A stretch of 64,000 nt of DNA. Source: Candida dubliniensis CD36 (Eukaryota > Ascomycota > Pichiomycetes > Serinales > Debaryomycetaceae). The notes beneath the pieces were generated by a model. The model saw only the letters and a program-made list of their open reading frames with translations. It was not told where the DNA came from and searched no databases. This document shows, one piece after another, positions 26,288 through 49,925 of the stretch (position 1 is the stretch's first letter; each line of letters starts with the position of its first letter). The stretch covers positions 2,232,001 to 2,296,000 of the forward strand of contig NC_012860.1 in assembly GCF_000026945.1 (NCBI RefSeq), given 5' to 3'. A program made the position numbers and the translations under genes.

Positions 26288-28588
26288 TTAAGCTAAATAG
26301 TTTGCTGCAATAGCGCCTCTTCTTCTTCGTTCACGTCTTAGAGCTTGCTCTTGTGGTGTCATTAAATCGTTGTTGATAATCTTGTTGGCCAATTGACACC
26401 CTTCAAAACTATTAAGATCTATTTTTTTAGCCCATGGTAAGCTCTTATACATTCCAGAATCAGTGAAATCAATAACCAAATTCTGCTTGTAAATAATTGG
26501 ACATTGTCTTTCCTCTTCATCATCTGAGTCTGAGTCCGAGTCTGAGTTTGAGTTTGAGTTTGAGTTTGAGTCTTCATAGTCATAGTCGTCATCAGAATCT
26601 TGTTCGTCATTATTAGAGAACTCATCGTTATAATAAATACCATATATATTCAAATCTGGTGACCTTTTCGTAAGTAATCTAGTCAAAAACTTTTCAATCA
26701 ATTTACGATTCAACCAAATCATTGACGATAAATTAATATATTTTAATGTGCCGGCAATATCAACATTCAATGGTGTTGGAATTTGATAAAGCAGGGTATC
26801 ATATTCAATTAATTTTTTACCATGAACATTTATAATGGCTGACAAAATTTCATCTTCATTGATCTTTTTCAAATAAGCACTATTAATTTCTTTCAAATTC
26901 AAATCGGAAAGATACACTTTACCATCTCCTTTATTTAAATATGATATATCAGCAACAGTTTGAGGTAATGGAGGTAACAAACTATTGTATTTCCTTATTG
27001 GTTTTGAAAATGTTGTTACCGAATACACTGAAGATGCAGTTGAAGCAATTGATTGATTTGATTTAAACAAGATTCGGTTATTGTTATTAAGATTATCAAA
27101 ACGTAATACACTCCCATTAATCGAATAAACATCATCAACATCATTTAATCTCATAATGTTATCAATTTTGTAAATCAAATCTTTGGGATAATTATTAATC
27201 AAATCAAAATTCTGATACTTGTGAATAGTGGAACGGGAAATTTCGTAATCAGTAGAAAGGGACAAATTTCCTAAATTAAGATTCACAATATTTGGACATA
27301 AATTAATCATATGTAAAATATAACCTATGGGTAAATCTTTGGAAGTTGAATAATGAAGTAAAAACTTGTTAATTAATGGATGCAGGTTAATTCTCTTATT
27401 CCAATTTGATGAATTCTGATCCAATTGAAGTTGTTCCAATCTTGGTGATTTCCTTTCAAGTTTTGTTGTTCCACTATAAGACATTCTTCTCTTTTTTGAT
27501 TTAAAATATTTAAATGGTTTAACAAATTTTTTGGTTGTTGATAAAGATGATTTAGAATTATTTGATCGAGATGATTTACTAGAAACATTCAGAAATTGGG
27601 AATTTGATGCAACTTTTGTCAATGAAGGTGATGGATGAATAGTATACAATGGATTATTTTTGAATTTCCAATCTCGCCAACCAGCCAAGATTTTTCCTCG
27701 AGGGAATTGATCCACTTTTTCATGATGAGGATTATCAACAATTTCTCCCAATAAATAATGATGATCTCGAGCTCCACCTACAATTCCTCCTCCATTTTCA
27801 TCTTCCCCATTTTCAACATTTTCATCTTGACCTTCTTCTTGTTCATCTTCATCATAACCTGGTTTGATACCAGACAAATCGATTGATTGGACATATTGTC
27901 CCACTTCTGAGTTCACTCTCAAATATGTAACAAATTGAGCAAATCGATAAGTTGATGTAAACACCAAATTTTCATAATAATAAGGTTTTGCTAAAAAATA
28001 AAATAATTTACATGTATACATACAACTTTTGTAATCCATAATGTCATCAATCAAATAAAAAATATAATCTAAAATCTCAATGGGGAGATTTTTAATATGT
28101 AATTCAGCAGGAAATAAGGGCAATTGATTTTGAATTTGATTCTGCAGTGAATTATTTATTTTGCTGATACTGGATGATGTTGTACCTGCACGATTCAATA
28201 AATTACCACAGGGAGTTGATAAAGTAGAACTAGATGATGGTGGTGGTGGTGGAGGAGGAGATAGTAGTACACTATTATTGTTGTTGTTGTTGTTGTTATT
28301 GGTGTTGGTGTTGGTGTTGGTGTTGGAAGACGATGATAATAGATTTGAGTTACTTAATCTCATTGTAATTGTTCGACTGACATCACTCAATAAAGATTTA
28401 TATTTCATTTTGAAAGCAGATGGTGGAGTTTCCTTCTTCTTTTGGAAAGCAATTCGTAATAAATTCAAATCATTTTGAGTCAATGGAATAAGGGTATGAG
28501 TCCGATAATCATATCTAGCATTAGGATTTATTAAAGACCGATAAGGAGGTAGATAACTGTGGAAATCAAGTGAATCGGTTTTTAACAT
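26288..28588 (-). CDS. F-box protein with degenerate leucine-rich repeats
   Basis: 766 residues. An F-box is visible at about residues 162-210: LHIKNLPIEILDYIFYLIDD, then YKSCMYTCKLFYFLAKPYYYENLVF. It would dock to Skp1 in an SCF ubiquitin ligase. Downstream are leucine-rich-repeat-like segments (NLCPNIVNLNLGNLSLSTDY; LKYINLSSMIWLNRKLIEKFL) likely to bind substrate. Low-complexity insertions interrupt the protein: Asn/Pro-rich at 88-120, acidic Gly-rich near 245-265, and a (Ser-Asn/Asp) acidic run near 695-715 encoded by a GAGTCT/GAGTTT hexanucleotide repeat. It ends with a basic RRERRRRG segment. I cannot name a yeast orthologue with confidence. It is the left neighbour of the giant WOR1 upstream region and transcribed away from it. 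Confidence 0.83.
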   Translation of the reverse strand: MLKTDSLDFHSYLPPYRSLINPNARYDYRTHTLIPLTQNDLNLLRIAFQKKKETPPSAFKMKYKSLLSDVSRTITMRLSNSNLLSSSSNTNTNTNTNNNNNNNNNSVLLSPPPPPPPSSSSTLSTPCGNLLNRAGTTSSSISKINNSLQNQIQNQLPLFPAELHIKNLPIEILDYIFYLIDDIMDYKSCMYTCKLFYFLAKPYYYENLVFTSTYRFAQFVTYLRVNSEVGQYVQSIDLSGIKPGYDEDEQEEGQDENVENGEDENGGGIVGGARDHHYLLGEIVDNPHHEKVDQFPRGKILAGWRDWKFKNNPLYTIHPSPSLTKVASNSQFLNVSSKSSRSNNSKSSLSTTKKFVKPFKYFKSKKRRMSYSGTTKLERKSPRLEQLQLDQNSSNWNKRINLHPLINKFLLHYSTSKDLPIGYILHMINLCPNIVNLNLGNLSLSTDYEISRSTIHKYQNFDLINNYPKDLIYKIDNIMRLNDVDDVYSINGSVLRFDNLNNNNRILFKSNQSIASTASSVYSVTTFSKPIRKYNSLLPPLPQTVADISYLNKGDGKVYLSDLNLKEINSAYLKKINEDEILSAIINVHGKKLIEYDTLLYQIPTPLNVDIAGTLKYINLSSMIWLNRKLIEKFLTRLLTKRSPDLNIYGIYYNDEFSNNDEQDSDDDYDYEDSNSNSNSNSDSDSDSDDEEERQCPIIYKQNLVIDFTDSGMYKSLPWAKKIDLNSFEGCQLANKIINNDLMTPQEQALRRERRRRGAIAANYLA

Positions 28589-29337
28589 TTAAAGTGGATT
28601 TATAAAACAGAACCAAACAGAACAGAACAAAACAGGAATGAAAAAAAAAAAAAAAAAAATTTTTTTAATTCTTTAGCTGAACTAAACAAAACTTGTATTT
28701 GATTTGATTTAATTTGATCAATTGATTGAATCAAAGGATGGCCCAAAAGATGTAAGAGTTGTTACTACTGTAAGGGTTGTAAAGTTGAGATAACAAACCA
28801 AAACCAAATCAAAACAAAAAAAAAAGGAGATAGAATAAAAGTGTGGATTTAAAAAATCTTGTGCTATCAGTAAATATTTATATATAGGTGCAGATAAAAA
28901 AAAAAAAAGAAAAAACTTAAATAGGGGGGGTTGGAGTAATAGAAAGAAAGAAAGAAACAATTCAAATTTTTGTGGCCCTTGTTCTTTTTTTTTTTTTTTT
29001 TGGGCTTTTGGTTTTGGTTTTGTCTTTGTTGTTTAACTTGACAATGCAGAATAAATATCGAGGTCTCGAGTCAACAAAGGAAACAATTACAATATATATT
29101 ATTATTTCTAACGTGATGGTTGATGGTTGAATGTTGTAGTAGTGTTATTAATTATGGGGAAAAGTGGTGTTAATACTTTTTCCATGGTTATACTTGCCCA
29201 TATATTATATGGGATCAAAACTGAAACTGTTTCAACTAGAAGCAGCAAATAAGAAAGAAAGAAAGAAAGAGAGATAGCAAACATTGAATGTAGACACTGA
29301 TTGTAGTAGTAGTAGTAGTTGATATTGTTGTGTACTG

Positions 29338-29346
29338 TTAAAGTTT
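29338..29346 (+). promoter_or_regulatory. WOPR-type site TTAAAGTTT
   Basis: Exact match to the 9-bp core recognised by WOPR-domain proteins (Wor1, Mit1, Ryp1), 12.4 kb upstream of the WOR1 ATG and 750 bp upstream of the F-box ATG. Confidence 0.4.
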
Positions 29347-31009
29347 GCGCTGATCGTAAATGCTACAAATATAGTCTAGACAACAATGAATTAAAAACCG
29401 AGAAGCAACAAAATACTATCAATGTTTATCTTTATTAAGAACTGTCAAATTCTTTTTTTAGTTTAATTGGTGATTAATCAAACTAGTCATTTTTTTACTT
29501 CTTTATCTATACTATAAGCCCTGGTTGGTGATTTTGACAGTCTTTGAAATATTGATCAAGATTGAAGGTTGAAACCAAGAAAAAAAAAAAAAGAAATAAA
29601 GTAAGCCCCTAATATTTCTATCTATTGCCAAGTGGGGCAATGTGTGTGTATGTGGGGAGGTGCGGGAAAAAAAAAAAGAAATTTGTTTTTCTTTCTTTGA
29701 TGAAGGCGGGATTTGGTTTTGATATTGAAATATACACACTCACACATACACACAGACAAACTCAAACACAATTGTCTCCACAGCAATCATCAATTTTTCC
29801 ATAATTCTTGTTGTAAATCAAGAAAAATTTTCCAAAATTCATATCTCTATATAATTCAACATTGCCTTACATATTGATAAACACAAATTCATTACTTTTG
29901 CTATTTTACTTTTTAGCAACAACACAAGACTTGAAATTGGAATTGGAATTCTCTAATGATAAAGATAGGAGAAAGTATTAATGTTAACAATATTGCGTTA
30001 TTTTTTTTTTTTTTTTTTTTTTCAATTATTTTCTTTGTTTGTTTGTTTGTATTTCTTTCTTTCTTTCTTTTTCTCTTCAATATTGATATATAAGGATTAT
30101 AGACACCGGTGTACTTTCAAGCTCGGGTTATTGTAAACTCTTTTGACCACTTACTGCATCAACAATTAGACATCTAGAATTGTTTGCAGAATAAGGGCGG
30201 GGCACATAAAAGCTAAAAAAAAAAAAAAAATCATCATCATCACAAGATCTATTGGTTTTTCTAGACCAATATACTTGTAGGATATAAAGATAGTCTCAAG
30301 ATTATTTTGCAGTTTCATGTTCCAAATTCAACAAAAGCCATGCCAAATGAGAGAATTCTTTTTTTTTTTTTGTATTTCATATCAAGTAGGCTTAGTTGTT
30401 GTTGTTGGAATTGCCTTTTCTAAAAATAGAGAATGACTGCTCGCCTATTATAGGTAATGCAGAAAACCACCAATAATTAGTTTTGTGCTTTAACACCACC
30501 ACCATCACAGAATGCAAGATTTAATTACTACTACTCACTCACTCGCTATTAGCAACCAAATAACCAAATAACCAACCAACCAATTACGCCAAGTAAGATC
30601 TGTAATTATAGAATGAGATATACTTCCTCCATATAGTTAATTATTATAACAGAACCCCAAGAGTTACTTGTAATTAAAAACTAATGAGATAACATTTTAA
30701 TTTTTGGAATTCTAGTTTTCCACCACTAGAGGAACCTAATAAAAAATCTCGAGATATTTAATTGTCACATTCTACAAAAGGAGTAAAATCAAAAGGAGTT
30801 TTCTGTTTTACATGGCCAAAATATCTTTATGATTATAAAATCAACTCTGTAATATCATCATTTGAATATTACAAATAATAACTGAATATGAATGAATATT
30901 AATAATAGAATAATAATTTGTGAATTTGTTCATTATTTGTTCATTATTTGTTGATTTAATCAATGACCAACCAAAAAAGAAGAAGCTACAAAAAAAAAAA
31001 ATCCCAAAG

Positions 31010-31051
31010 AAAGTTTAAAAATTATTATGATAATTATTGCTAAAAGTTTAA
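31010..31051 (+). promoter_or_regulatory. Pair of near-consensus WOPR half sites
   Basis: AAAGTTTAA occurs twice (31010-31018 and 31043-31051), 33 bp apart. It shares the AAAGTTTA core with the Wor1 motif but lacks the leading TT. Confidence 0.25.
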
Positions 31052-32525
31052 TACTATTACTATAATAGACATAACCAGAAAAGGATAAATTTTTTTTTTC
31101 CAAAGATTAAAAGGTTTTAATTTTATTTTATTTTAGAATAGATAGAAATAAGAATAAAAATGTTACATTAACCCCCAGTACTATAAGTGGCAAATGAGAT
31201 CTCTTAAAACTTCCTATTGGGATGGTTTTCTCTTTTTTTTATTTTTTTTTTATTTTTTTTACAAATTGAACCTGAAATATAATTCCCAATACTTGATGCA
31301 TTTACGAACAAAGAAGAAGATGAAGAAGAAGAAGAAGATGATGATGATGATGATATATGCTGAGTTTCTTAATAAAGACACTGATCAACAAAATATTTTA
31401 TACAATTCTGCATGAGTAATACTGCCATATACAATTAACTAACTAACTCCTATTTACTATGTACTTGTCAAGGAAATACCTACGGATCTCAGTAGTTGAT
31501 ACAAACAAGCCCAGAATCCAGAGAATCCAGAATTCCAACGTTAATAGACTTATATAATAAACTCCATGGTGATCGTGATATAACTAGAGTTTTTTTTTTA
31601 AAAAAAAAAAATAAAAAGAAGCCTTAAATGTGAAATAAGGTGTTTCCCCTTTTTGACTTTGACTTTGACTTTGACTTCTGGGGTCCTCATCACCCCTCAC
31701 CACCCCCACCACCACCACTACTACTACCTTTGCCACTCACCCTCCCGCCCCGCCCTGCCCCTATAATTACTACTTTATTAGATTATATCATTACTATAAA
31801 AGCAAAAAAAGGTTAGATAAAAAATATATTGAGATTAACTTCTTACTAAAGTTTATCTTCAAAATCCCCCCCCCCCCAAAAGTAAAAGTAAAAGTAAAAA
31901 AACCAAAAACCAAAAACCAAAAACCACTAAACCTAAGATAAGATTATGGAATAATAAAATTTTGAGTTTTGTAGTAGTACTTTAATTATCTATCATGATG
32001 ATGATTATGAATGAATGATGAGAATGATGAGAATTATGAGAATTATGAGTGAGTGAATATGAATGAATGAATATTTTAGGATTTATGACAAAATAGATTT
32101 GTAATAAATATCAAATACGCTGTTTTTTGTTTTTTTTTTAACGAAAACAACAAACTAATAAACTAATAAACTGATCATGATCAAAAAAAAACAAAGATAA
32201 TATAGATAATAACTATAGTATTATTAGAAAGAATTAATTTTAACACACTTAAGAGGAAATTTTTTTTTTTTTTTTAGATCAGATAATGCAATTACTATTA
32301 TTACTCTGACTTATATATATACATATATTTTTATTCTTGTTATTCTTTTGTTTTGGTGGTAGAGTTGAATTCTGATTATGTATTTGATATCTATATTACA
32401 AATTAATGAAATATCATGAATTTTAAATTTGTCTAAATTTTAATACCAAAAGAGAATGAAAATAAAATACTGAATTACTGAATTACTGAATTATTGAATT
32501 CTTCACAACACTATTGGATATTCAC

Positions 32526-32571
<46 letters not shown>

Positions 32572-32612
32572 AAAACAACAAATTAGATAATGGGGGTTCT
32601 TTTGAATAATAC

Positions 32613-32621
32613 AAACTTTAA
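32613..32621 (-). promoter_or_regulatory. WOPR-type site (AAACTTTAA on plus strand)
   Basis: Exact reverse complement of TTAAAGTTT, about 9.1 kb upstream of the WOR1 ATG. Confidence 0.4.
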
Positions 32622-33428
32622 CAACCGTATATGTTCAAAGTAATAAATCACTATTATTATCAATAACCAACAACAACAACAACAAAAACAACAGATATAT
32701 GTATTCTATTGGTCAACTGGTTGTATTTCTTTAAAGAACAATAGAGAGTGAGGTTATATAAATATACACATATACACATAAGTAATTGATTGGGATTTTG
32801 GGAAATTGTAAAGTTTTAAAGTTGTAAAGTTTTTTTTTTTAAGTTTTTTCACATTAATGTTATTATTGACGACGATGAATGCCACAATTTTAATCCCAAT
32901 AGTTTAACTTCTTTTTTTTTTTATTTTGAGTTTTCATTTTTTCATTTCTTGTTTTATATATTATTATAACTATAACTTTATTTCAATAGTAGTAATTTTT
33001 TTTTTTAAAAGAAAAAACAACCATATACGTATGTGTACTTTGAATTTGTTATTGTTGTTGTTATTGTTGTTGTTGTTGTCTTGTCAGTGGTTCCTGAAAC
33101 AGAAACAACTAATAGAAATGACCATTTGAGAAAGAAATTCCACTATACTACCACCACTACAGGAGATAAGAAAATATCCACGATGAGTTTTTTTTTTTTT
33201 TAATAGAATTAAAGAAATATTAAGAATACTAAGAATATTAAGAACCACCAAAATATACCGATCATCATCATCATCAACAACTATGTGTATGGAGGGTGTA
33301 TAGAAAAAAATAACCCCAAAACGTAACTATATCGTTTCAAGTTGTAATACATAAAACAACAAATCCTGCATTGATCAGATGAAACTATAAATGAAGAAGG
33401 ACAAAAAAAAAATATGAATGATACTAAC

Positions 33429-33459
33429 CTATACTTATACCTATACCTATACCTATACC
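33429..33459 (+). repeat. (CTATAC)n hexanucleotide repeat
   Basis: About five tandem CTATAC units, the first with one mismatch, immediately followed by CCCTAACCATTAACCC. Confidence 0.8.
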
Positions 33460-33647
33460 CTAACCATTAACCCAAAAAGCAAAAAGCTAAAACGGTAAGA
33501 AAAAGACTAATGATTTGTTTTAGTTGTTGTTGTGGTGGTGGTGGTGGTGGAGGAGGAAAATGTTAAAAAAAAAACAACAACTTCAAGTTAAAACTCTTTG
33601 TAACTACATACTATTGAAAAAAAAAATGTTTTGTTTTTGTTTTTTTT

Positions 33648-33657
33648 TTAAAGTTTA
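33648..33657 (+). promoter_or_regulatory. WOPR-type site TTAAAGTTTA
   Basis: Exact 10-bp match. A further AAAGTTTAAACTT partial palindrome lies 110 bp downstream at 33766-33778, making a local cluster. Confidence 0.45.
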
Positions 33658-34646
33658 TGGTTGTGATAATGATAATATCAAACCGTATCCAAAAAGAAAG
33701 ACAAAGAAGAAAACAAAAAAAAAAAGACGGGTGGGAAAGAAAGAAAGAAAGAAACAACAATAACAAAAGTTTAAACTTAAAAAACTATAAACTATAAAGT
33801 ATAAAAATAGAAATAGAAATAAATGACACAACCCATCAAATCAATAGCTGATTAATAAATTATTATTATATTCATACAATCTAAAAAAAAAAAAAACAAC
33901 CTAAGATATGATATGATATGATATGATATGACAGAAGCAAAAAAAAGAAAAACAACTGCTGTATAGTTATTATTTATGACGGCTAATACTTGTTTAATTA
34001 ATAGATTTTGATGTGATTTTTAACACGTTCTGTAAGAATGCTTTTACCTGTATTTTTTCTTCTCCTCCCTAATTATTACAACAACAACAATAAGAAATCT
34101 ATTTTGTTTGTGGTGTGTGCATTACATTATGTACGAACTAAAACAAAAAAGGAAAGCGACAAGAATTGTTAGATGTTAGAGAAAGAAACTAAGGGTGCGT
34201 GTATGTGTGTGTGCGCGCGCGCACGCTCGACGGAAGAGGAGTAAGGGGGGGGGGGTGCAAATATTAATGAAATGAGTTTCATATTTTCATCACTATTTAG
34301 TGTTCCATTAATTAATTCATGAGAAAGGGGAAGGGGGGGAATTAAAGTCAAATCATAAACTCTTTTTTTTGTTTTTTTTAATATTATTGTGATTAGGGTG
34401 TTTACTAAAGTTTGGTTTCAAATAGTCAAATAAATTGTTGTTGTTGCTGTTGTTAACAAAAAGAAAAGAAAAGAAAAAAAAGGAGGGGGGGGGGGGAAAG
34501 GGTCCACATTATCATTGGATGGAGTCCGGGATATACCAACAACATATACATATATATATATATATATTTGCAATCCAAATAAAAATTACAAAATTGTTTT
34601 TTAATATTCGATGCATCTATTATATATATACAGGAGAGAAGTATAT

Positions 34647-34678
<32 letters not shown>
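34647..34678 (+). repeat. (CTAA)n tetranucleotide repeat
   Basis: Eight consecutive CTAA units, followed 12 nt later by four CATTAA hexamers (34690-34716). Confidence 0.85.
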
Positions 34679-35937
34679 TTGACCCACGCAACATTAACAT
34701 TAACATTAACATTAACTGCAAATATTAAAAAACAATTTGTAACTTTTATAGTTGTTGTTAAGACACAATAATCCTCTTTTTTGTTTTTTTTTGGGGGGTG
34801 GGGGTTTCTTTTTGTTTCTTGTTTCATAACAAATTTTTATAAATGACGCCAAAAACAAAACAAAAAAAAAAAAGAAAAAAACCATAATCTATACTATTGA
34901 TGCATTTTACGAATTTGATCATTTTGGGAAAAAAAAATAAATCTATTTGGTACGTATCGAAATCAAGTTTTATTATGATTATTGTCTAATTTCTTATCTC
35001 ATATACATGAATACAAATCATATTTTTTTTGATTTCGAAACTACATGCTTTATTTATTTTTACTTTTACTCCTGCGGGGGTGGGATTTGAAATAATCTTG
35101 TAATGACTTAGAAAGAATTGGGTACATTTCTCTTGCATTTTTGTTTCAGTTTTCAGTTAAGTTATTTAGTTCCAATTTCAAAAACTATACCCCATTGATG
35201 GTGGTGGAACCAAGGTCCAAGGTCCAATATATAAATCATTTTGAGATGTCAACAACGACAACAACAACAACAACAACAACAAATTCAACAATACTAATAA
35301 TAATATTAAAGATCAACTCAACCAGTATAGTTGTGTGTTGTAAAACACCCAAGGTGATAATTCCCAAGGTTTTTAGGACTTAACAGGATTTGATACACTA
35401 CTCTACACTACACTACACTACACTACACCAAGAAACAAACAAACAAACAAACAAACAAACAAATAACCCCATATGTTACACAAAATGAGAAAGAACGTAG
35501 AAAATTTCACATTTCATTTCACATTTCATTTTTTTTCTTTTTTTTTTTGGAACAATTCAAGTTGCAACTAATACCATCGGAAATAGAACAAATAGAACAA
35601 ATAGAGACCACCATCACCATCACCATTAAAGAAAAAGAAAAAGAAAAGATTCAAAGATTCAAAGATTCAAATGGGGGGAGGGAGGTTAGGGTTTTAATTA
35701 ATGAATATCCGTAACGGAAAAAAAAAAAAAAAAAAAAAACCAGAAGTTAGACAAAACCAAAAACCAAAGCAGAAAGAAAAAGAAAAAAGAAAAAGAAAAA
35801 GAAAAAAAGGGAATTAAAGTTATCTTTTAAGTTTTTGGTTGTTAGTTATGTATGTTCTAAAAAAAAAAAAATTCAATGTTACAAATCAAACAATTTTTTA
35901 TATAAAGTTTATGTGGCCTTATTCTAAAACAAATTTT

Positions 35938-36003
35938 ATTGGTTATTGGTTATTGTTATGGTTATTGGTTATGGTTATGGTTATGGTTATGGTTATGGTT
36001 ATG
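35938..36003 (+). repeat. (GGTTAT)n hexanucleotide repeat
   Basis: GGTTATTGGTTATTG units change into at least six perfect GGTTAT units. Confidence 0.85.
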
Positions 36004-36528
36004 ATGAATAAATAAATATAGAAATAAATATAAAGTTATAATAGATTTTGCATTCATTATGTACAAAATTCAAACTTTATATTTATATAATATATGAAAC
36101 ATACAGTAGTATAATAGTGATATCAATAGGATAGTATAGCTAATATCCAAAGTTTCAAAATTCCAAAGTTCCAAAGTTGCAAATTCTCGAATTTTCTCGA
36201 ATTTTCTTGATTTTTTTTTTTTTTTTGTTTTTATGTTAAGAATTGATTTGAAACAGTAATATATTACGAAGAAAGGAAAGAAATACACGATGACGAGTAA
36301 ACAAGTAAACAAGTAAATAAATAATAATTATCTCCATTAAAACAAATTCCTATAGTCACCAAGAAAATACGAAGAAAAGAAAAGAAAAGAAAAGAAAAAA
36401 AAAGATAAGTGACTTGAAAATAGAGATGGAGTTAACTTCAATAGATTTGTGATTTGTGATTTAATCAATTAATATATATATATATATATATCACACACAC
36501 ACATACATATCCCATGATGAGTTTTAAC

Positions 36529-36537
36529 AAACTTTAA
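36529..36537 (-). promoter_or_regulatory. WOPR-type site (AAACTTTAA on plus strand)
   Basis: Exact reverse complement of TTAAAGTTT. Related AAAGTTTA/CAAACTTTA sequences occur at 35904-35911 and 36071-36079. Confidence 0.4.
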
Positions 36538-38420
36538 ATAAAGAAAATTATTTAATAAATTCCTCTTTTGTAACCCCCCCCCTTCTTCTTCTTCTTCTTT
36601 TTTTTTTTTAAACCATCATTCCCTGTAGATTCACAACCATGGTTAATATACCTCCCTCTACCTTTCTACCTCTCTACCTCTCTACCTCTATACCCCTCTC
36701 TATCGCTAGATCCGCGATTACGTAAGTAATGAGAATATTATCAAATGACATAAAACATCCTTGACATGATTATCAAAAAAAAAAAAAAGAAAAATAGAGA
36801 AGTAAGAAATGAAAACCTATACCAGTTCTTTTTTTTTTTTTTTGCAATATTTGCAATATTTGAGTGTGAATTACGCCTCTTGCACCCCAGTGAATTTATT
36901 ATTTATTTACGCGGAGGAAGGAAGAAAAGTTCCCGAAATAAATTATAATATATTTTATAATAATAATAATAATAATATTCTTTACTTCAGTTTCAAAACG
37001 GAAAAGAAAAAGAAAAATTTTATATTTCTGTGATAAATTTCAATCCTCTAAAAAAGAAGAAGAAGAATAATAATTTCTGTATTGGTTTCACTAACAACGA
37101 CGAGGGATGGTGGTAGGGAACGGGAAGAAAGAAAGAAAGAAAACAAACAAAGAAACAAACAAATAATATTGTTCTATTCTATTATATTGTAAAAGAAAGT
37201 TCACACAAGAAGGTAAGAAAGTAAATTGATTGATTAACTAACTAACTAACTAAAACTAAGAGTCCACAATTATTGATATTTGGATTTATATTTGGATTTA
37301 TTATTTCCATTATTATTTCCATTATTATTCCGTAATTATTTTTCCATCCATCCATCCATTCTTTGTATCTTTGTATCCTTGTTTGTTTCTATGTTTCTAT
37401 GTTACAATAAATATTATTATTATTATTAATATTATTCCTGTCAAGAAATTTCTATACTTTTGTTCATGTTACCACCCCCGAATATCCGCCCTACCCTTCT
37501 CCCCATCCGTCTCTTCTACCTTATCTTAACCCTGATGAAACCAAAAAAAAAAAAAAAAAAAAGAAATAAGTAATAAATAATAAGTAATAAGTAACTTGTT
37601 TTATTATTCTATTCCTTCAATATAATATACTTTAATGATGATGATTATGATGCTTGATTCCAAATAAAAAAAAGAGAGTTCAAGATTTAGATTCAGTTTG
37701 AAATGGGTTTAAATTCTAATTTTGCCACTTTCTTTAAAACCAAAAAAAAAAAAAAAACTTTGACAGGGTGAGTAGTATCAGTCTATATCTATACTCCATA
37801 TATATTCTATATTCTATATGCTATTCTATATTCTATATTCTAGTATCGTAATCAAAAGTTAATTGCAATTAATTATTTTAAAAGGTAAAATTGTCTTGTA
37901 ACATTGAAAAATAAGAATATAACTGTCATCGTATATCACAAATCTGGAAACATATACGGAGAAAAAAACAAAAAAAGAAAGTTTTTTTTTTTTTTTTCTT
38001 AACTTTGGTTTGAAGTTTATTTTCCATTTTTGTTTCGTTTTGTTTTGTTTAGTTTAGTTTTGTTTAGTAACTTTTATTGTTTGTATTAATCATTTCTTCT
38101 TCTTCTTCTTCTTTTTTTGTCATATGGGAATCTAAATTGGTGATGTATTGATATTGATATTGATATTGATATTGGTAGTAAATAATAATATCAGTTTGTA
38201 CACAATTCAAATTATTAATGGGGACTACCAAATGTACTAGGTAGGGTTCAAGATTAACATTAAGAGTAAGAGTAAGCAAAAACAAGAGATAATTATTTTC
38301 GGAAGTTTAGTTAAAATATAAAGACAGAGACAGAAAGACAGAAAGAGAAAGAGACAGAAAGAGAAAGAGAGCCGAAAAAAGAAAATTAAAGGTTAAAGGG
38401 AATTATTACACAAATATATA

Positions 38421-38453
38421 TGTCTATATGTCTATATGTCTATATGTCTATGT
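38421..38453 (+). repeat. (GTCTATAT)n octanucleotide repeat
   Basis: Four tandem copies of the 8-mer, all with internal ATG triplets, lying just upstream of the ATG-free WOR1 leader. Confidence 0.8.
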
Positions 38454-38630
38454 TTGTGTTTGTGTATAGTCGGTGCAGTTCTAAAACACGGGCTGCATAA
38501 CTATGCATAGACAAATTACAACTACAACAACAACTACAACATCAACTTAAAAAGAGAATACTTATACTTATTAACTTTAAAAATACCCAACCAACCAACT
38601 AAACCAACCAACTAAACAAACTAAACAAAC

Positions 38631-38640
38631 TAAACTTTAA
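38631..38640 (-). promoter_or_regulatory. WOPR-type site (TAAACTTTAA on plus strand)
   Basis: Exact reverse complement of TTAAAGTTTA, about 420 bp upstream of the predicted WOR1 TATA box, so in a classical promoter position. It follows a row of TAAACAAAC repeats. Confidence 0.5.
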
Positions 38641-39000
38641 ATAATGGAAAAAAAAACAAGGAACAAAATTAAATGAAATGAAATGAGAGAAAAAAAAGGT
38701 TAATAATTGTTGGATTTACAGTTTTGGGTTTTTATTTTTTGAAAGTTTTATTTTTTTTAAGACAAAAAAGACAACCACAACAACAACAACCACCACGACA
38801 TTCACGACTACCAAGTAACACAAACCCTCTTCTCCCTCCCTCTTCTCAATGGGGGGTTTGTGTGTGAATCTGTCACACTCAATGTCAGATAGACATTTCA
38901 TTTAATCACACACCCATACATATACATATACATATATACATATATACATACATATATATACAATAGTCATTATATAGGAAGGCATGCACTAACAAAAATC

Positions 39001-39067
39001 TTTTTTTTTTCTTTTTTTCTTTTTTTCTTTTTTTCTATTTTCTTTTTTTTTTTTTTTAATATAAATA
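39001..39067 (+). promoter_or_regulatory. WOR1: Predicted WOR1 core promoter: pyrimidine tract plus TATA box
   Basis: A pure pyrimidine tract of T7-8C units except for one A (39001-39057) is followed at once by TATAAATA (39060-39067), a full match to TATAWAWR. Poly-dT tracts exclude nucleosomes in yeast. The last ATG before WOR1 on this strand is at 39073-39075, 6 nt past the TATA box, and none occurs afterwards. Transcription would start some tens of bases downstream, giving a leader of about 2.5-2.6 kb. The published C. albicans leader is about 2 kb. Confidence 0.6.
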
Positions 39068-39075
39068 TTGAAATG

Positions 39076-41733
39076 TTTAACACAACTTTGAATAACCAAT
39101 ATTTTAAATCTCAAAACTTTTTTTTTTTTTAGGTTTTGAATTTATTCCTTATAATTTTAACTCTTCAAGTCAATCTACTATCAATTAGATCATCAACAAC
39201 TATCACCAACAACTATCAACAACTATCATCATTAGTATTATTACTACTACTACTACTACTACTTCTGGTACTACCTACTACTAATTCAGCCCTGTACTAG
39301 CTACAATTATTAATATCAAATTAAATAAATTAAATAAATTACCATCCCCCCACCACTCCACCCCCACCCCTCAATTTGTCTTTTGGATATACTTTAGATT
39401 AACCAATAGATCTCCCATCATCATCATCATAATCATCATTTATTGTTAGTTTCAAAACAATTACAACTAAGGATATTTTTGAAAATTTAAATACATTTTA
39501 TTTTCTTGTGGCAAATATATCTGTATTATCAAGTAATTGTGTGTACAATAAAGTAGGAGATACACACATAAACAAGATAATACTCCCCCCTTCCACTCCC
39601 ACTACCTCCTAGAAAAGAAAAAATTTCCCTTTTTTTTCTACTAATTATATCTATATCGATTATCTTAGTTTTGTTTTGAGATTTGAAGTTTGATCATTCC
39701 TTTTTTTGTTTTTTTTTTTTGGTTGGGTCTTTCCTTAAATAATCATAATAATTGTTTAAAAAAAAGATCTAAAGAAATCTCGGTTAACTGGTTAATTTCG
39801 AATTTCAATTTTAGTCAGATATATTATACAATACAGATATATTCATATTCATATTGATATTCATATTCATATTCAATTTTTTTTTTTAAAAAAAAACATC
39901 TGACATTCCTTAACAAAAAACCCCCTTTTTTTTTGGGAAAAGATAAAAATTGAACCCTGACATCATCTTTGTGGAATTTGGGTTTTTTTTTTTTTTTTTT
40001 TTTTTTTCAAAATAATATATATATTTCACCTATTGTCTATTGATACCGCCACCCTATTGTTTTATATATATTTATTACAAAAGGTTAAGCCCGTTTATTA
40101 TTTAATTGGACAGAGAAAAAAAAAAAATAAAACAAATTCATACCCTGCATAAGAATTCAATTCAATTCAATTCAATTCAATTCAATTCCAACCACACCAA
40201 ACCAAACCAAACCAAACCAAACCAAACCATCAAATTAACAAAAAAGAAGAAGAAAAACAACAACAATCTAGATTAACTTCCAACAGATCAACTTTATTCT
40301 GAGTTTAAAATTTAGAAAGATTATTGTTCAACAAGCATAAACAGTTTATTGAATTTAATTTAATTTAATTTAATTTTTTTGTTTCTGTTTTTGTTTTTGT
40401 CTTTGTCTTTCTTTATTAGTTTGCGCTTTTAACTATCCGTTTTCAGGGGTCGGGTGTCCTTATATTCTAAAGCGGTATCTGCAAGATTTGTTTTTTTTTT
40501 TTCCAGTTTCCAACTTTTCCAAGTTTTTCCAAGTTTTTCCAAGTTTTTCTCGGTTTTCCGTGGTATTCTTGGTTTTCTCGGTTTTCTCAGTTTCCGTGGT
40601 TTCTTGTTTCTTGTTTCCGTTTTCCGAGTTTTTTTTTTTTTTTTTTTGAAGGGGGTTTATTTGTTACTGTTTGTGTGTTCTTTAATTATATAACACAACA
40701 ATAACTTTTTTTTTTTTTTATCAGGGATTAATTATACTCAATTAAGTAAATACAATCTTCCCTTAATTAGAAAACAATTCCAAACACACAACACACAACA
40801 CACAACACAACAACGCAACAACAACATACAACTAATTTACTAAACTTCATTGCAGCAACGGTTTTTATTTTCCCACATAAAAAAAAAACCGTTTACACAT
40901 ACATACATACATATAAAGGAACAAAGCATCTTAGACCTTACAGATTTTTCTTTCTTTTTAATTAAACCATCTAAATCAAAAATATTTCACAATTGGAATA
41001 TATATATATAATAACAATAACAATAAAGGAAGAAGAAGAAGAAGAGAAAGAAAACCAAATAAAAAAAGAAACCAATTATTATTAATATTAATATTATTAT
41101 TAATATTATAATTAATTCAAATTCCCATTTGTTCAATTTTTATTTTTTTATTTTTTTTAATTTTTTTTTTTCACCAAAAAATTTTTTTCTTTGTTTTTTG
41201 AAACCCTTGCCGTTCCTTTGTTTATTGACATTTATTTTGGTGATAATTATTTATTATATTATATTATATTCTTTTTTTTTTTTTTGTTTTGAACAAGAAG
41301 AAGAATTCATTCATTCATTTATTCATTCAATAAATTATTTAAAGAATATAAATCTTCACAATATTTGCATTACAAGGTATTAAAACAACTTATTAACTCA
41401 ATTAATTCAATCAATAACAACCATTCCTCAAAAGAATAAAAAAAAAAAAAAACCTGTTTTACTACGCCCGCAAAAAAACGTGGAACCACTCTCCTTCCCT
41501 ACCAATCCTACCAATCTCTTAAGTGACTAATCAAATAAGTTACTTAATTATCAAAAAACAAAGGAAAAACAAAGGAAAAGGAAAAGGGACAAAAAAAAGA
41601 AAGGATCCAAGTTTCAATATCTGTGTTTTCCAATTGTGGGTTTTTTTGTTTTTTTTTTTCTTTTTAAGGGGGTTTGAAAATTTTAATATTAATTTTGAAT
41701 TTTTTAAAAAAACAAAATAGTAATACTAAAATA
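39076..41733 (+). other. WOR1: Predicted long 5' UTR of WOR1 (ATG-free)
   Basis: Reading every line, I found no ATG on the plus strand in these 2,658 nt, while the reverse triplet CAT occurs more than 40 times. The strand is poor in G and rich in CAA, T and A runs, (AATTC)n at 40153-40189 and (CCAAA)n at 40196-40228. It has an AAGTTTTTCC triple repeat near 40521-40549 and (TTCA)n near 41306-41328. The pattern fits a very long mRNA leader kept free of upstream start codons. In C. albicans a leader of about 2 kb lowers WOR1 translation. Confidence 0.7.
40153..40228 (+). repeat. Adjacent (AATTC)n and (CCAAA)n pentanucleotide repeats
   Basis: Seven AATTC units are followed by about six CCAAA units, separated by six bases, inside the predicted WOR1 leader. 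Confidence 0.85.
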
Positions 41734-42722
41734 ATGTCTAATTCCAGTTTAGTCCCCACATATAATGGATATATCCATAACACAAGAGATGCATTAGCTG
41801 TGATTCAACAAGTTATTGATAAACAATTAGAACCAGTTTCTCGAAGACCTCATGAACGTGAACGAAATCTGCTTATAGTATCAGGAAATGTATTTGTATT
41901 TATTGAACAAATGTCAGGAATAAAAAGATGGACTGATGGAATTTCATGGTCACCTTCAAGAATTCAAGGACGATTTTTAGTTTATGGTGAATTGGATAAA
42001 AAAAATTTGATTGATAAAGATAAGAAAAAGAAAAAGAAACGTAAGTTTGGTCCTAATGATGAATACGATAATAGTGTTAATGATTCAGATTATGGCGGTG
42101 GTGTTGGTGTTGGTGGTGGTGGTGGAGGAGGATATAATAACCACCTTCATAACGACAATACAAATCATCTCAATAGAAATGCTCGATTAAGTTCAATGTT
42201 ACTTGGGTCTGGTACTGGTAGTATCACTCATAATATACTAGATAATAAATCATTATCAACTACAACATCAGCAACAACAGCAGCAACAACAACAACAGGA
42301 ATGATTACTTCTTCAAATCATAACAATAATTCAATGCTTTCTCACAATGTTATCCCTGCATCAAGTTCATTTTTATGTGATTATAAAACCAGTCTAGGTA
42401 ATGGACCTATGGTATCAACTGCTATACTGCAAAATGGATTAGTGAAAAAAACCATCACTGTGACAACTACAACCAAAGAATTAAATATGGAAGGTAAAAA
42501 TGAAACTCAAACAATTCATCTTGTAAGTTATTATAATAAAGAAGATGTTGATTCAGGGAAATTACAACGTCCTTCAGAATCTGATTTAAAACATGTTCAA
42601 ATTTCTCCAACATTATGGACCCTGGTTCAAGAAAATTCATTAGGAGGTAAAGGTCCAATTGAAGATGAAGAAAGTTATGGAATCGATATTCATAATCAAT
42701 ATACAAATGTTACTTATGTTCC

Positions 42723-42766
<44 letters not shown>

Positions 42767-44574
42767 TTCAACAACAACAACATCAGCAACTTCAACATCA
42801 ACATCAACATCAACCACTTCTTCATCATTCTCCATCGGTAATAGGAAGTACAACCAGTATTGTCAATAATAATTCATCAATATCCAATGGAAGTTATGGT
42901 AATAGTTATTCGAAAAATATGTCACGTTCATACAATAAATATTCCAATTCCCAAGTTTCTCAATTACTGTATCTGTTACCACCTTCTCAATCAGATTCAT
43001 TGATTACAACAAATTCAATTGGAACAACATCTACAAATGTGAAACGTGAAGATGATTCACATAACAATAATATTAATTCATCTAGTGGAAATGAGAATCA
43101 ATATATAAATGCCCTTGGTCATCTGCATACTTTGTCATATGGTGGTCAAGGATATACAACTGATACTACTACTACTGGTACTGGTACTGGTACTGGTACT
43201 GGTATGGCAACACCAGCATATAATAATTATTCACAAACAACTACAAATACAAACATCACTACACCTTTGCAACAACAAAATCAATATGGTCAATATGTTC
43301 AATATGGGGTGGCTCCAAGTACCATAAGTGGTACCAATTCTAATTCCAATTCCAACTCCAATTCCAACTCCAACTCCAACTCCAACTCCAATAATAATTC
43401 CAATAATAATAATAATACTATTGGTGGTGGTGGTACTGTGGCGCATAATATTCCTCAAGATGTTTATTCTGGTCATTATACAAGTTTTACTCAACCTCAT
43501 TATCCCCAACAAATTTATCCTCAATATCATATGACTACAAATAATTCAATTGATCAATATAATACAAATTCAATTAATCATCATCAATATCACTCAACCA
43601 TTAACACTAACACTAACACTTCTACTACCAACAACAACAACAACAACAATAATAATAATAATAGTTTTTCTCGTACAACAGGAGTAGGATCTAAACGTAA
43701 ATCAAGTGTTATTAGTAATAGTAATAGTAATAGTACTAGTGGTGGTGGTAATAATAACAATAACAATAATTATAGTTATAGTTCAAATAGTTCTATTTCA
43801 ACTACTCGACCACTGATAATTAGTACTAATACAACAACAACAACAAATAGTACAACTACTGGAAATTCTAGTTTTAGTGGATCTAGTAATAATATAACTA
43901 CAAATTCATTAATGAATAATCCTTGGTTTAATAGTGCTACAAATATGGGATTAAATTCAAATTATATTACAAGTTCAAATAATAATAGTACTAGTGGTGG
44001 TAATCATGGTGGTGGTGGTGGAATTGGAATTGGAAATAATGAATATGAACCAATGCCTTTAACTAATAGTAATACTACTACTACTGCTGGTGCTGGTGCT
44101 GCTAATATTCCTGGTTACTATCAACAGCAACAACAACAACATATTCCTTCTCATGTTGGTTCTATTACTCAACAACAACAACAACAAGTAGTTAGTGGAG
44201 TGACAACATCACATATTATTCATAATCATCCTTATCTTCATCATCAAACATATGGACAAGGATCTAATAATTCTAATTCTGGTGATAATTCAATTCTTAG
44301 TGGCAACAATAATAATGGTGGTAGATCAAGTAATAATAATAATAATATAATTACTAGTTCTTCAGGTATCACAAGTTCTTCTTCTTCTAATAATAATAAT
44401 AATACTAGTGGTGATAGAACTTTAATATCTACTGGAACAACAACAGCAACAACAACAACAGCATCAGCAACAACATCAGCAACAACAGCATCAACAGCAA
44501 TAACAACAACAACAGCACAAGAAGAATCAGTAGGTGGTAATTCTTCAGGTTCATATTATACTAGTACTAATTAA
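41734..44574 (+). CDS. WOR1: Wor1, WOPR-domain master regulator of white-opaque switching
   Basis: 946 residues from the ATG at 41734, the only ATG for 2.6 kb. The DNA-binding WOPR box has two parts. WOPRa is about residues 7-95 (YNGYIHNTRDALAVIQQV, RRPHERER, FVFIEQMSGIKRWTDGISWSPSR, GRFLVYGEL). WOPRb is about 220-297 (NGLVKKTITVTTT, QTIHLVSYYNKEDV, LQRPSESDL, LWT..QENSLGG). A basic DKKKKKKRK between them is a likely nuclear signal. From about residue 325 the protein is a Gln/Asn/Ser/Thr/Gly-rich prion-like domain with polyGln/His, (Ser-Asn), (Gly-Thr) and polyAsn runs. Such domains let Wor1 form condensates. Wor1 activates its own gene. C. albicans Wor1 is about 785 residues as I recall, so the tail is longer here. 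CTG codons shown as Leu (for example codon 45) are Ser in this clade. Confidence 0.97.
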
Positions 44575-49001: not shown

Positions 49002-49925
49002 ATGTCCACTCCAAGTGAATATAAACTCCCTCAATATACTGTCAAAGATTACGCTTCATTTGCTTTAGCTGGTGCTATTGGTTGTGGTGCTACTCATGGT
49101 GCCATGACTCCAATTGATGTCGTCAAAACTAGAATCCAATTAGAACCAACCGTTTATAACAAAGGTATGTTGGGTTCTTTTAAACAAGTTGTTCAAACTG
49201 AAGGTGCTGGTGCTCTTTTAACTGGGTTGGGTCCAACTGTTTTGGGTTATTCTTTACAAGGTGCTTTCAAATTTGGTGGTTACGAATTATTCAAGAAAAC
49301 TTTTATTGAATATTTGGGTTATGACACTGCTAAACAATATAAAGATTCAATTTATATTGGTTCATCTGCTTTAGCTGAATTTTTTGCTGATATTGCTTTA
49401 TGTCCATTGGAAGCTACTAGAATTAGATTGGTTTCTCAACCAACTTTTGCCAATGGATTAATTGGTGGATTCTCAAGAATTTTGAAAGAAGAAGGTGTTG
49501 GTTCATTCTATAATGGATTCACTCCAATCTTATTCAAACAAATTCCATATAATATTGCTAAATTCTTGGTTTTCGAAAGAGCTAATGAAGCCATTTATAA
49601 TGCTATTCCAACTCCAAAAGTCGATTTATCCAATGCTGCTCATACTGCTGTTAACTTGGGTGCCGGTATCATTGCTGGTTGTGCTGCTGCCATTGTTTCT
49701 CAACCTGCTGATACTTTATTGTCTAAAGTCAACAAAACCAAGAAAGCTCCAGGTCAATCCACTGTTGGTTTGTTGGTCCAATTAGCTAAACAATTGGGTG
49801 TCACTGGTTCATTCGCCGGTTTACCAACAAGATTGGTTATGGTTGGTACTTTGACTTCCTTACAATTCACCATCTACGGTTCATTGAAGAAAGCTTTGGA
49901 CTGTCCACCAGCCGTTGCTTTGTAA
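49002..49925 (+). CDS. MIR1: Mitochondrial phosphate carrier Mir1
   Basis: 307 residues, inner mitochondrial membrane. It imports phosphate with protons (or in exchange for hydroxide) for ATP synthesis. Three mitochondrial-carrier repeats are seen, each opening with its signature: [10 protein letters not shown] (about residue 37), [10 protein letters not shown] (about 135) and [10 protein letters not shown] (about 235). Paired helices are Gly-rich ([58 protein letters not shown]). The length is that of yeast Mir1 (311). Codon choice is strongly biased (GGT, GCT, AGA, CCA), as expected for a highly expressed gene. The first ATG is used, after a T18 tract and an A/T-rich leader. Confidence 0.96.

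Follow-up and report, generated by a model that had tools for sequence, protein, structure and literature searches.

The WOR1 locus

The window, by which we mean the whole 64,000-nucleotide stretch analysed, is a portion of contig C2 of the Candida dubliniensis CD36 assembly (14,618,422 bases, 8 contigs). The product of the reading frame at 41734..44574 contains a Gti1_Pac2 (WOPR) domain (169.6 bits), and its homologs carry the name White-opaque regulator 1. The nearest in-frame stop lies 69 nt upstream of the start codon, and the next upstream frame of at least 150 aa is found at 26288-28588 on the minus strand, 13.1 kb from WOR1. The locus contains the following features:

28589..39072, plus strand: upstream region of normal ATG density (177 ATG against 182.7 expected, counted over 28589-39075, 10,487 nt)
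39060..39067, plus strand: TATA box TATAAATA, read in the sequence, at the upstream edge of the ATG-free stretch
39073..39075, plus strand: last ATG before the stretch, starting 13 nt after the TATA box begins
39076..41733, plus strand: ATG-free stretch (0 ATG against 22.1 expected), putatively an unspliced 5' leader on the WOR1 transcript
41734..44574, plus strand: WOR1 coding sequence (946 aa with CTG translated as Ser), with WOPR domain and named homologs

The WOR1 protein has long Ser-Asn, Thr and Asn runs and exceeds in length its best-matching full-coverage homolog (787 aa); repeat expansion seems to have lengthened the gene. Eight TTAAAGTT motifs, which we take to be Wor1 sites, occur in 28589..39072 (both strands) and none in the ATG-free stretch, an absence that is not significant by itself. 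A search for Wor1 relatives with the first 98 amino acids in genome-contig and viral-contig collections returned none.

The TATA box that the original prediction had set at the edge of the ATG-free stretch is present there. Given the usual TATA-to-start spacing in yeasts, the ATG at 39073..39075 is probably upstream of the transcription start, because the box begins only 13 nt before it.

Absence of ATG upstream of WOR1

The plus strand has no ATG between the one at 39073 and the WOR1 start codon at 41734, a gap of 2661 nt that leaves an ATG-free stretch of 2658 nt. CAT, the same triplet on the other strand, occurs 44 times there. Both counts agree with the original prediction (no plus-strand ATG in 39076-41733, more than 40 CAT), and its rough base frequencies were close to the measured fractions of A 0.353, T 0.392, G 0.092 and C 0.163. 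Its estimate that 25-30 ATGs would occur by chance was near the mark as well: in 2000 dinucleotide shuffles of the stretch, the ATG count averaged 22.1 (sd 3.7) and never reached zero, the minimum being 10, and the longest ATG-free gap across all of the shuffles was 1216 nt. At the rate of the adjoining 10.5 kb upstream, 44.9 ATGs would be expected. The statement that ATGs are common before 39073 held for the upstream region as a whole, although the one cited near 38641 sits at 38644.

Among the 64 triplets, ATG alone is an outlier in this stretch, with a z-score of -4.7, the next lowest being -2.2. The CAT count is slightly low (56.4 expected; 40 of the 2000 shuffles had as few or fewer). Elsewhere in the window the largest ATG gap is 637 nt, a quarter of that at WOR1, and the largest CAT gap is 597 nt. 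The exclusion is thus strand-specific, ATG-specific and sharp-edged. The length of the ATG-free stretch, taken by itself, puts the excluded stretch at no less than 2296 nt for WOR1 and 4464 nt for UME6 (described below), as 95% lower bounds. An ATG would be created in the WOR1 stretch by 432 of the 7974 possible substitutions, a mutational target so large that any selection must be persistent.

Content of the stretch

A hidden coding gene was ruled out, there being no long frame on either strand; the longest sense stop-to-stop frame has 106 aa and is of low complexity. An Rfam search gave nothing at the gathering score. The splice consensus motifs GTATGT, GTAAGT and TACTAAC are absent from the plus strand of the stretch, a search that covers consensus introns only. 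Upstream of EFG1, TACTAAC occurs at -1349 and -680, but GTATGT and GTAAGT do not. The novel introns reported for C. dubliniensis lie mostly in 5' UTRs and non-coding transcripts (PMC3626586).

Folding was compared with 40 dinucleotide shuffles in each 150-nt window. Mean z was -0.94 for WOR1 (6 of 34 windows below -2), -0.08 for UME6 (6 of 62), -0.23 for EFG1 (0 of 20) and -0.25 for CZF1 (3 of 29). Strong leader structure was therefore rejected, with a modest excess over shuffles in WOR1 only. All four of these leaders are G-poor, and windows on their sense strand are less strongly folded than those on the antisense strand or in distal DNA.

There was no clear sign of selection against near-cognate start codons in the pooled ATG-free stretches, where observed/expected was 1.42 for TTG, 1.74 for GTG, 0.98 for CTG, 0.75 for ACG and 0.81 for AGG; the missing ATG accounts for part of the rise in TTG and GTG. 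TTG has A at -3 less often in these stretches (51 of 275) than in distal DNA (106 of 386), which may be a composition effect.

Other regulators of the genome

Other regulators were found by domain searches, and the upstream DNA of some was examined. The names WOR1 and UME6 come from named homologs; the other gene names rest on domain, length and chromosome and are to that extent provisional. The signature is not special to WOR1, and UME6 (C2:1345500-1353500) is more extreme, with 4745 ATG-free nt where 50.7 ATGs are expected and with CAT at 98 against 96.8 expected. Upstream of EFG1 there are 1595 ATG-free nt (13.9 ATGs expected), and the corresponding stretches are 1647 nt (15.7 expected) for the RFG1-like gene, 1082 nt (12.4) for the CPH1-like gene and 828 nt (7.0) for the CPH2-like gene. 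CZF1 (C5:1555400-1561400) has 669 ATG-free nt, then a lone ATG at -672, and the next only at -2299, so that a single ATG occurs in 2296 nt. This ATG opens a 28-codon frame and has T at -3, and it is a candidate leaky or regulatory uORF. Beyond these stretches ATG returns to the expected frequency (observed/expected 176/182.2 for WOR1, 10/9.3 for UME6, 42/45.5 for EFG1, 54/47.8 for CZF1 and 60/57.7 for RFG1). The absence of ATG, its confinement to one strand and one triplet, its sharp edge and its recurrence at independent genes are observed directly.

Sellam and coworkers name 10 regulators with long 5' UTRs (PMC2926782). Six were examined here, three of them (CPH1, CPH2 and RFG1) added once the list was known, and none has fewer than 579 ATG-free nt: EFG1, RFG1, CPH1, CPH2, CZF1 and NRG1 (579 nt). 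CRZ1, CRZ2, SSN6 and FCR1 were left out.

Long upstream DNA by itself makes no desert of this kind. The TEC1-, BRG1- and NRG1-like genes, each with more than 6 kb of upstream DNA, have 378, 463 and 579 ATG-free nt, respectively, followed by dense ATGs. The ORF at position 49002 of the window (4427 nt upstream) has 311 ATG-free nt, and ORF 30536 of the C8 piece (4133 nt upstream) has 95. A 13.9-kb stretch of C8 was dropped as a further long-promoter control, since it reaches the end of the examined piece and carries copies of a repeat of about 2.1 kb. That region, at about 146000-160000 of C8, has no frames above 150 aa and contains pairs of 140-aa frames recurring every ~2.1 kb, a tandem repeat that is perhaps the major repeat sequence of Candida.

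We also noted a bZIP gene of 365 aa near 1324000 of C2 with 1060 ATG-free nt upstream (10.6 ATGs expected). A long leader is predicted for this unnamed regulator.

Genome background and leader boundaries

The ends of each ATG-free stretch are set by the first ATG, which makes counts within those ends circular. Outside boundaries avoid this circularity, and for these we used leader lengths from papers on C. albicans, another species, as plain distances: 1978 nt for WOR1, 3041 for UME6, 1173 for EFG1 and 2071 for CZF1. The four leaders so bounded (8263 nt) contain 1 ATG against 81.1 expected, an observed/expected ratio of 0.012 (95% interval 0.0003-0.069), and 161 CAT against 170.7 expected.

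In 345,656 bases (overlaps included), counting on both strands the gaps flanked by ATG on both sides, nine ATG-free gaps exceed 700 nt, and all nine are sense-oriented upstream of a gene. Eight end at the start codon and one at the lone upstream ATG of CZF1. Among 92 distinct gene starts, the ATG-free distance has a median of 160 nt and a 95th percentile of 910, and five starts exceed 1000; the CAT-free distance reaches a maximum of 309. This set, from which 16 ORFs without an in-frame upstream stop were left out and in which duplicates were merged, is enriched for transcription factors, most loci coming from searches for such domains; the CPH2-like and RFG1-like genes were added later and are not counted in it.

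For a set not chosen by function, we took 37 genes from the window, minus WOR1, and from 60 kb of C8. Their ATG density per kb is 0 in the last 25 nt before the start codon, 3.2 at 25-50 nt, 7 to 9 at 50-300 nt and 14 to 17 beyond, in bins that hold 37 genes near the start codon and 9 at the farthest point. This profile is the ordinary constraint on short leaders; the median 5' UTR of C. dubliniensis is reported as 74 nt (PMC3626586). The text of that RNA-seq paper makes no mention of WOR1.

For C. albicans, the WOR1 leader is given as 1,978 nt in one paper (PMC2924316) and as 2,978 nt in another (PMC6034079), and one of these figures may be a slip. Taking the shorter, the ATG-free stretch extends 680 nt beyond the reported C. 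albicans 5' end at WOR1, where 6.6 ATGs are expected and none is seen. It extends 1704 nt farther at UME6 (13.4 expected), about 420 nt farther at EFG1 (past mapped starts at -1112 to -1173; 3.7 expected) and 225 nt farther at CZF1. The original prediction, which read the whole stretch as leader and would be weakened by a transcription start well inside it, is partly touched by these overshoots at four genes. They would be explained by longer leaders in C. dubliniensis, by minor distal starts, by both, or by a further cause of exclusion beside the leader. TATAWA occurs within -80 to +20 nt of the edge at all four genes tested (product of background fractions 0.0019, for a window chosen post hoc). 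Longer leaders are favoured because a TATA-like element lies near all four edges, and we infer from the DNA that transcription of WOR1 in C. dubliniensis would start near 39.1-39.4 kb.

Alternative explanations

An accident of composition, in which T-rich, G-poor repeats simply happen to lack ATG, would suit the G fraction and the abundant homopolymer runs of the WOR1 stretch. Yet not one of the 2000 shuffles had fewer than 10 ATGs, TG is used freely in TTG (55) and GTG (14), and the same pattern is found at UME6, EFG1, RFG1 and CPH1 and nearly so at CZF1. The shuffles and this recurrence refute chance, and we regard the accident as next to impossible. The stretch could instead belong to a separate non-coding or antisense unit, or an ATG-containing motif could be avoided at the level of DNA, and antisense transcription opposite the WOR1 leader has been described in white C. 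albicans cells (PMC2924316). Antisense transcripts, however, would leave sense ATG unaffected. A DNA-binding motif should be shunned in both orientations, whereas antisense ATG comes close to the expected count at WOR1 and at UME6. The nine large gaps, moreover, all stop at a gene start or within the CZF1 leader. We consider both variants highly improbable.

If ribosomes entered internally near the start codon, the outer leader would go unscanned. Leaders of this length do impose a heavy scanning load, and some yeast mRNAs of stress or starvation are described as carrying IRESs (PMC6034079). Entry near the start codon would nevertheless relax selection on the distal part, and the outer 680 nt of WOR1 and the outer 1704 nt of UME6 are as free of ATG as the rest, which makes this mechanism quite improbable. 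It is also conceivable that the true leader is about 2 kb long, as in C. albicans, and that the outer 0.7 kb is free of ATG by chance or through rare distal starts. The reported length of 1,978 nt (PMC2924316) speaks for this, as does the overshoot at four of the four genes compared. Against it, an outer 680 nt free of ATG would arise by chance with a probability of about exp(-6.6), the edge meets the TATA box, and there is the figure of 2,978 nt, itself possibly a slip (PMC6034079). A leader of this shorter length we think unlikely.

A probable AUG-free leader scanned from the cap

Selection on the leader against upstream starts, as originally predicted, is the only explanation we found that fits the strand specificity, the ATG specificity, the way the stretch stops exactly at the start codon, and the recurrence at other regulators whose C. 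albicans orthologs are reported to have long leaders; it is thereby supported. Translation initiation is implicated because sense AUG is excluded, near-cognates show no clear loss and the other strand is nearly ordinary. Scanning from the far end is implicated because the exclusion spans the full length, the outer part of which would be freed by entry near the start. Very probably, then, the WOR1 stretch is an unspliced, cap-scanned 5' leader under strong selection against upstream AUGs. Small ribosomal subunits would load at the cap and scan the entire leader; an AUG newly arisen by mutation would capture them and be purged by selection. Both the continuous scanning and selection as the cause of the missing ATGs are what we infer from the pattern of exclusion. 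The same scheme would hold for UME6, RFG1, EFG1 and CPH1, and for CZF1 apart from its one weak upstream ATG.

The leader could damp translation by its length, by structure, by bound proteins or by weak non-AUG starts. Repression by the WOR1 leader cannot come from AUG uORFs, because it contains none. The candidates that would remain at WOR1 are the length of the leader itself, its homopolymer tracts and bound proteins. Leaders of the GCN4 kind are alike in that a regulator's leader exerts translational control, but the GCN4-like gene here has three upstream ATGs (-221, -260 and -418) in the 720 nt of upstream DNA examined, compared with none in 2658 nt at WOR1, where no AUG-initiated short upstream ORF was found.

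The literature searched, which did not extend to the two primary papers on these leaders (Guan and Liu 2015; Childers 2014), gave no description of near-total AUG exclusion over kilobases as a signature shared by these regulators. Filamentation and white-opaque regulators are known to have long 5' UTRs (PMC2926782, PMC2924316, PMC6034079). In C. albicans, translation is reportedly lowered by the leaders of WOR1 and UME6 (PMC6034079), with a further such report for WOR1 (PMC8546583). The long leaders of C. albicans belong to the same genes (UME6, WOR1, CZF1 and EFG1), and in both species UME6 has the longest and EFG1 the shortest. The ATG-free stretches here are longer, and the order of WOR1 and CZF1 is swapped if the 1,978-nt figure is used. 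The available passages of the C. albicans accounts discuss structure, IRES and uORFs as mechanisms and do not mention the absence of AUG as a signature of the class; the EFG1 5' UTR of strain SC5314 is reported to lack a short uORF that another strain has (PMC6034079).

Upstream AUGs in eukaryotic 5' UTRs are likewise known to be under purifying selection (PMC7889888). Our observations match this in showing a sense-strand, AUG-specific depletion before start codons, which is also seen here at ordinary genes. Ordinary depletion is partial, however, with 1,003 uORF-containing genes reported in C. dubliniensis (PMC3626586), whereas the exclusion is total over 2.66 kb at WOR1 and 4.7 kb at UME6. 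Avoidance of upstream AUGs and long leaders are thus already known; the length and completeness of the exclusion, shared by these regulators, we did not find described in the literature searched.

These results bear on the range of 40S scanning in vivo and on the means by which kilobase leaders damp translation. Total exclusion of AUG over 2.7 to 4.7 kb provides evolutionary evidence for scanning to the start codon from far upstream. It argues against repression of WOR1 and UME6 by AUG uORFs, and it allows long leaders and their 5' ends to be sought from DNA alone. More tentatively, a class of cell-fate regulators in CTG-clade yeasts may carry AUG-free scanning tracks of 1 to nearly 5 kb that are kept clean by selection, with scanning distance and time, and not uORFs, giving a low and delayed output that would serve as a threshold for opaque or hyphal commitment; we hold this to be possible, though doubtful. 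If it is true, few leaders known to be scanned in nature would be longer than these tracks, and the length of a leader could be predicted from DNA alone by the length of its ATG-free stretch.
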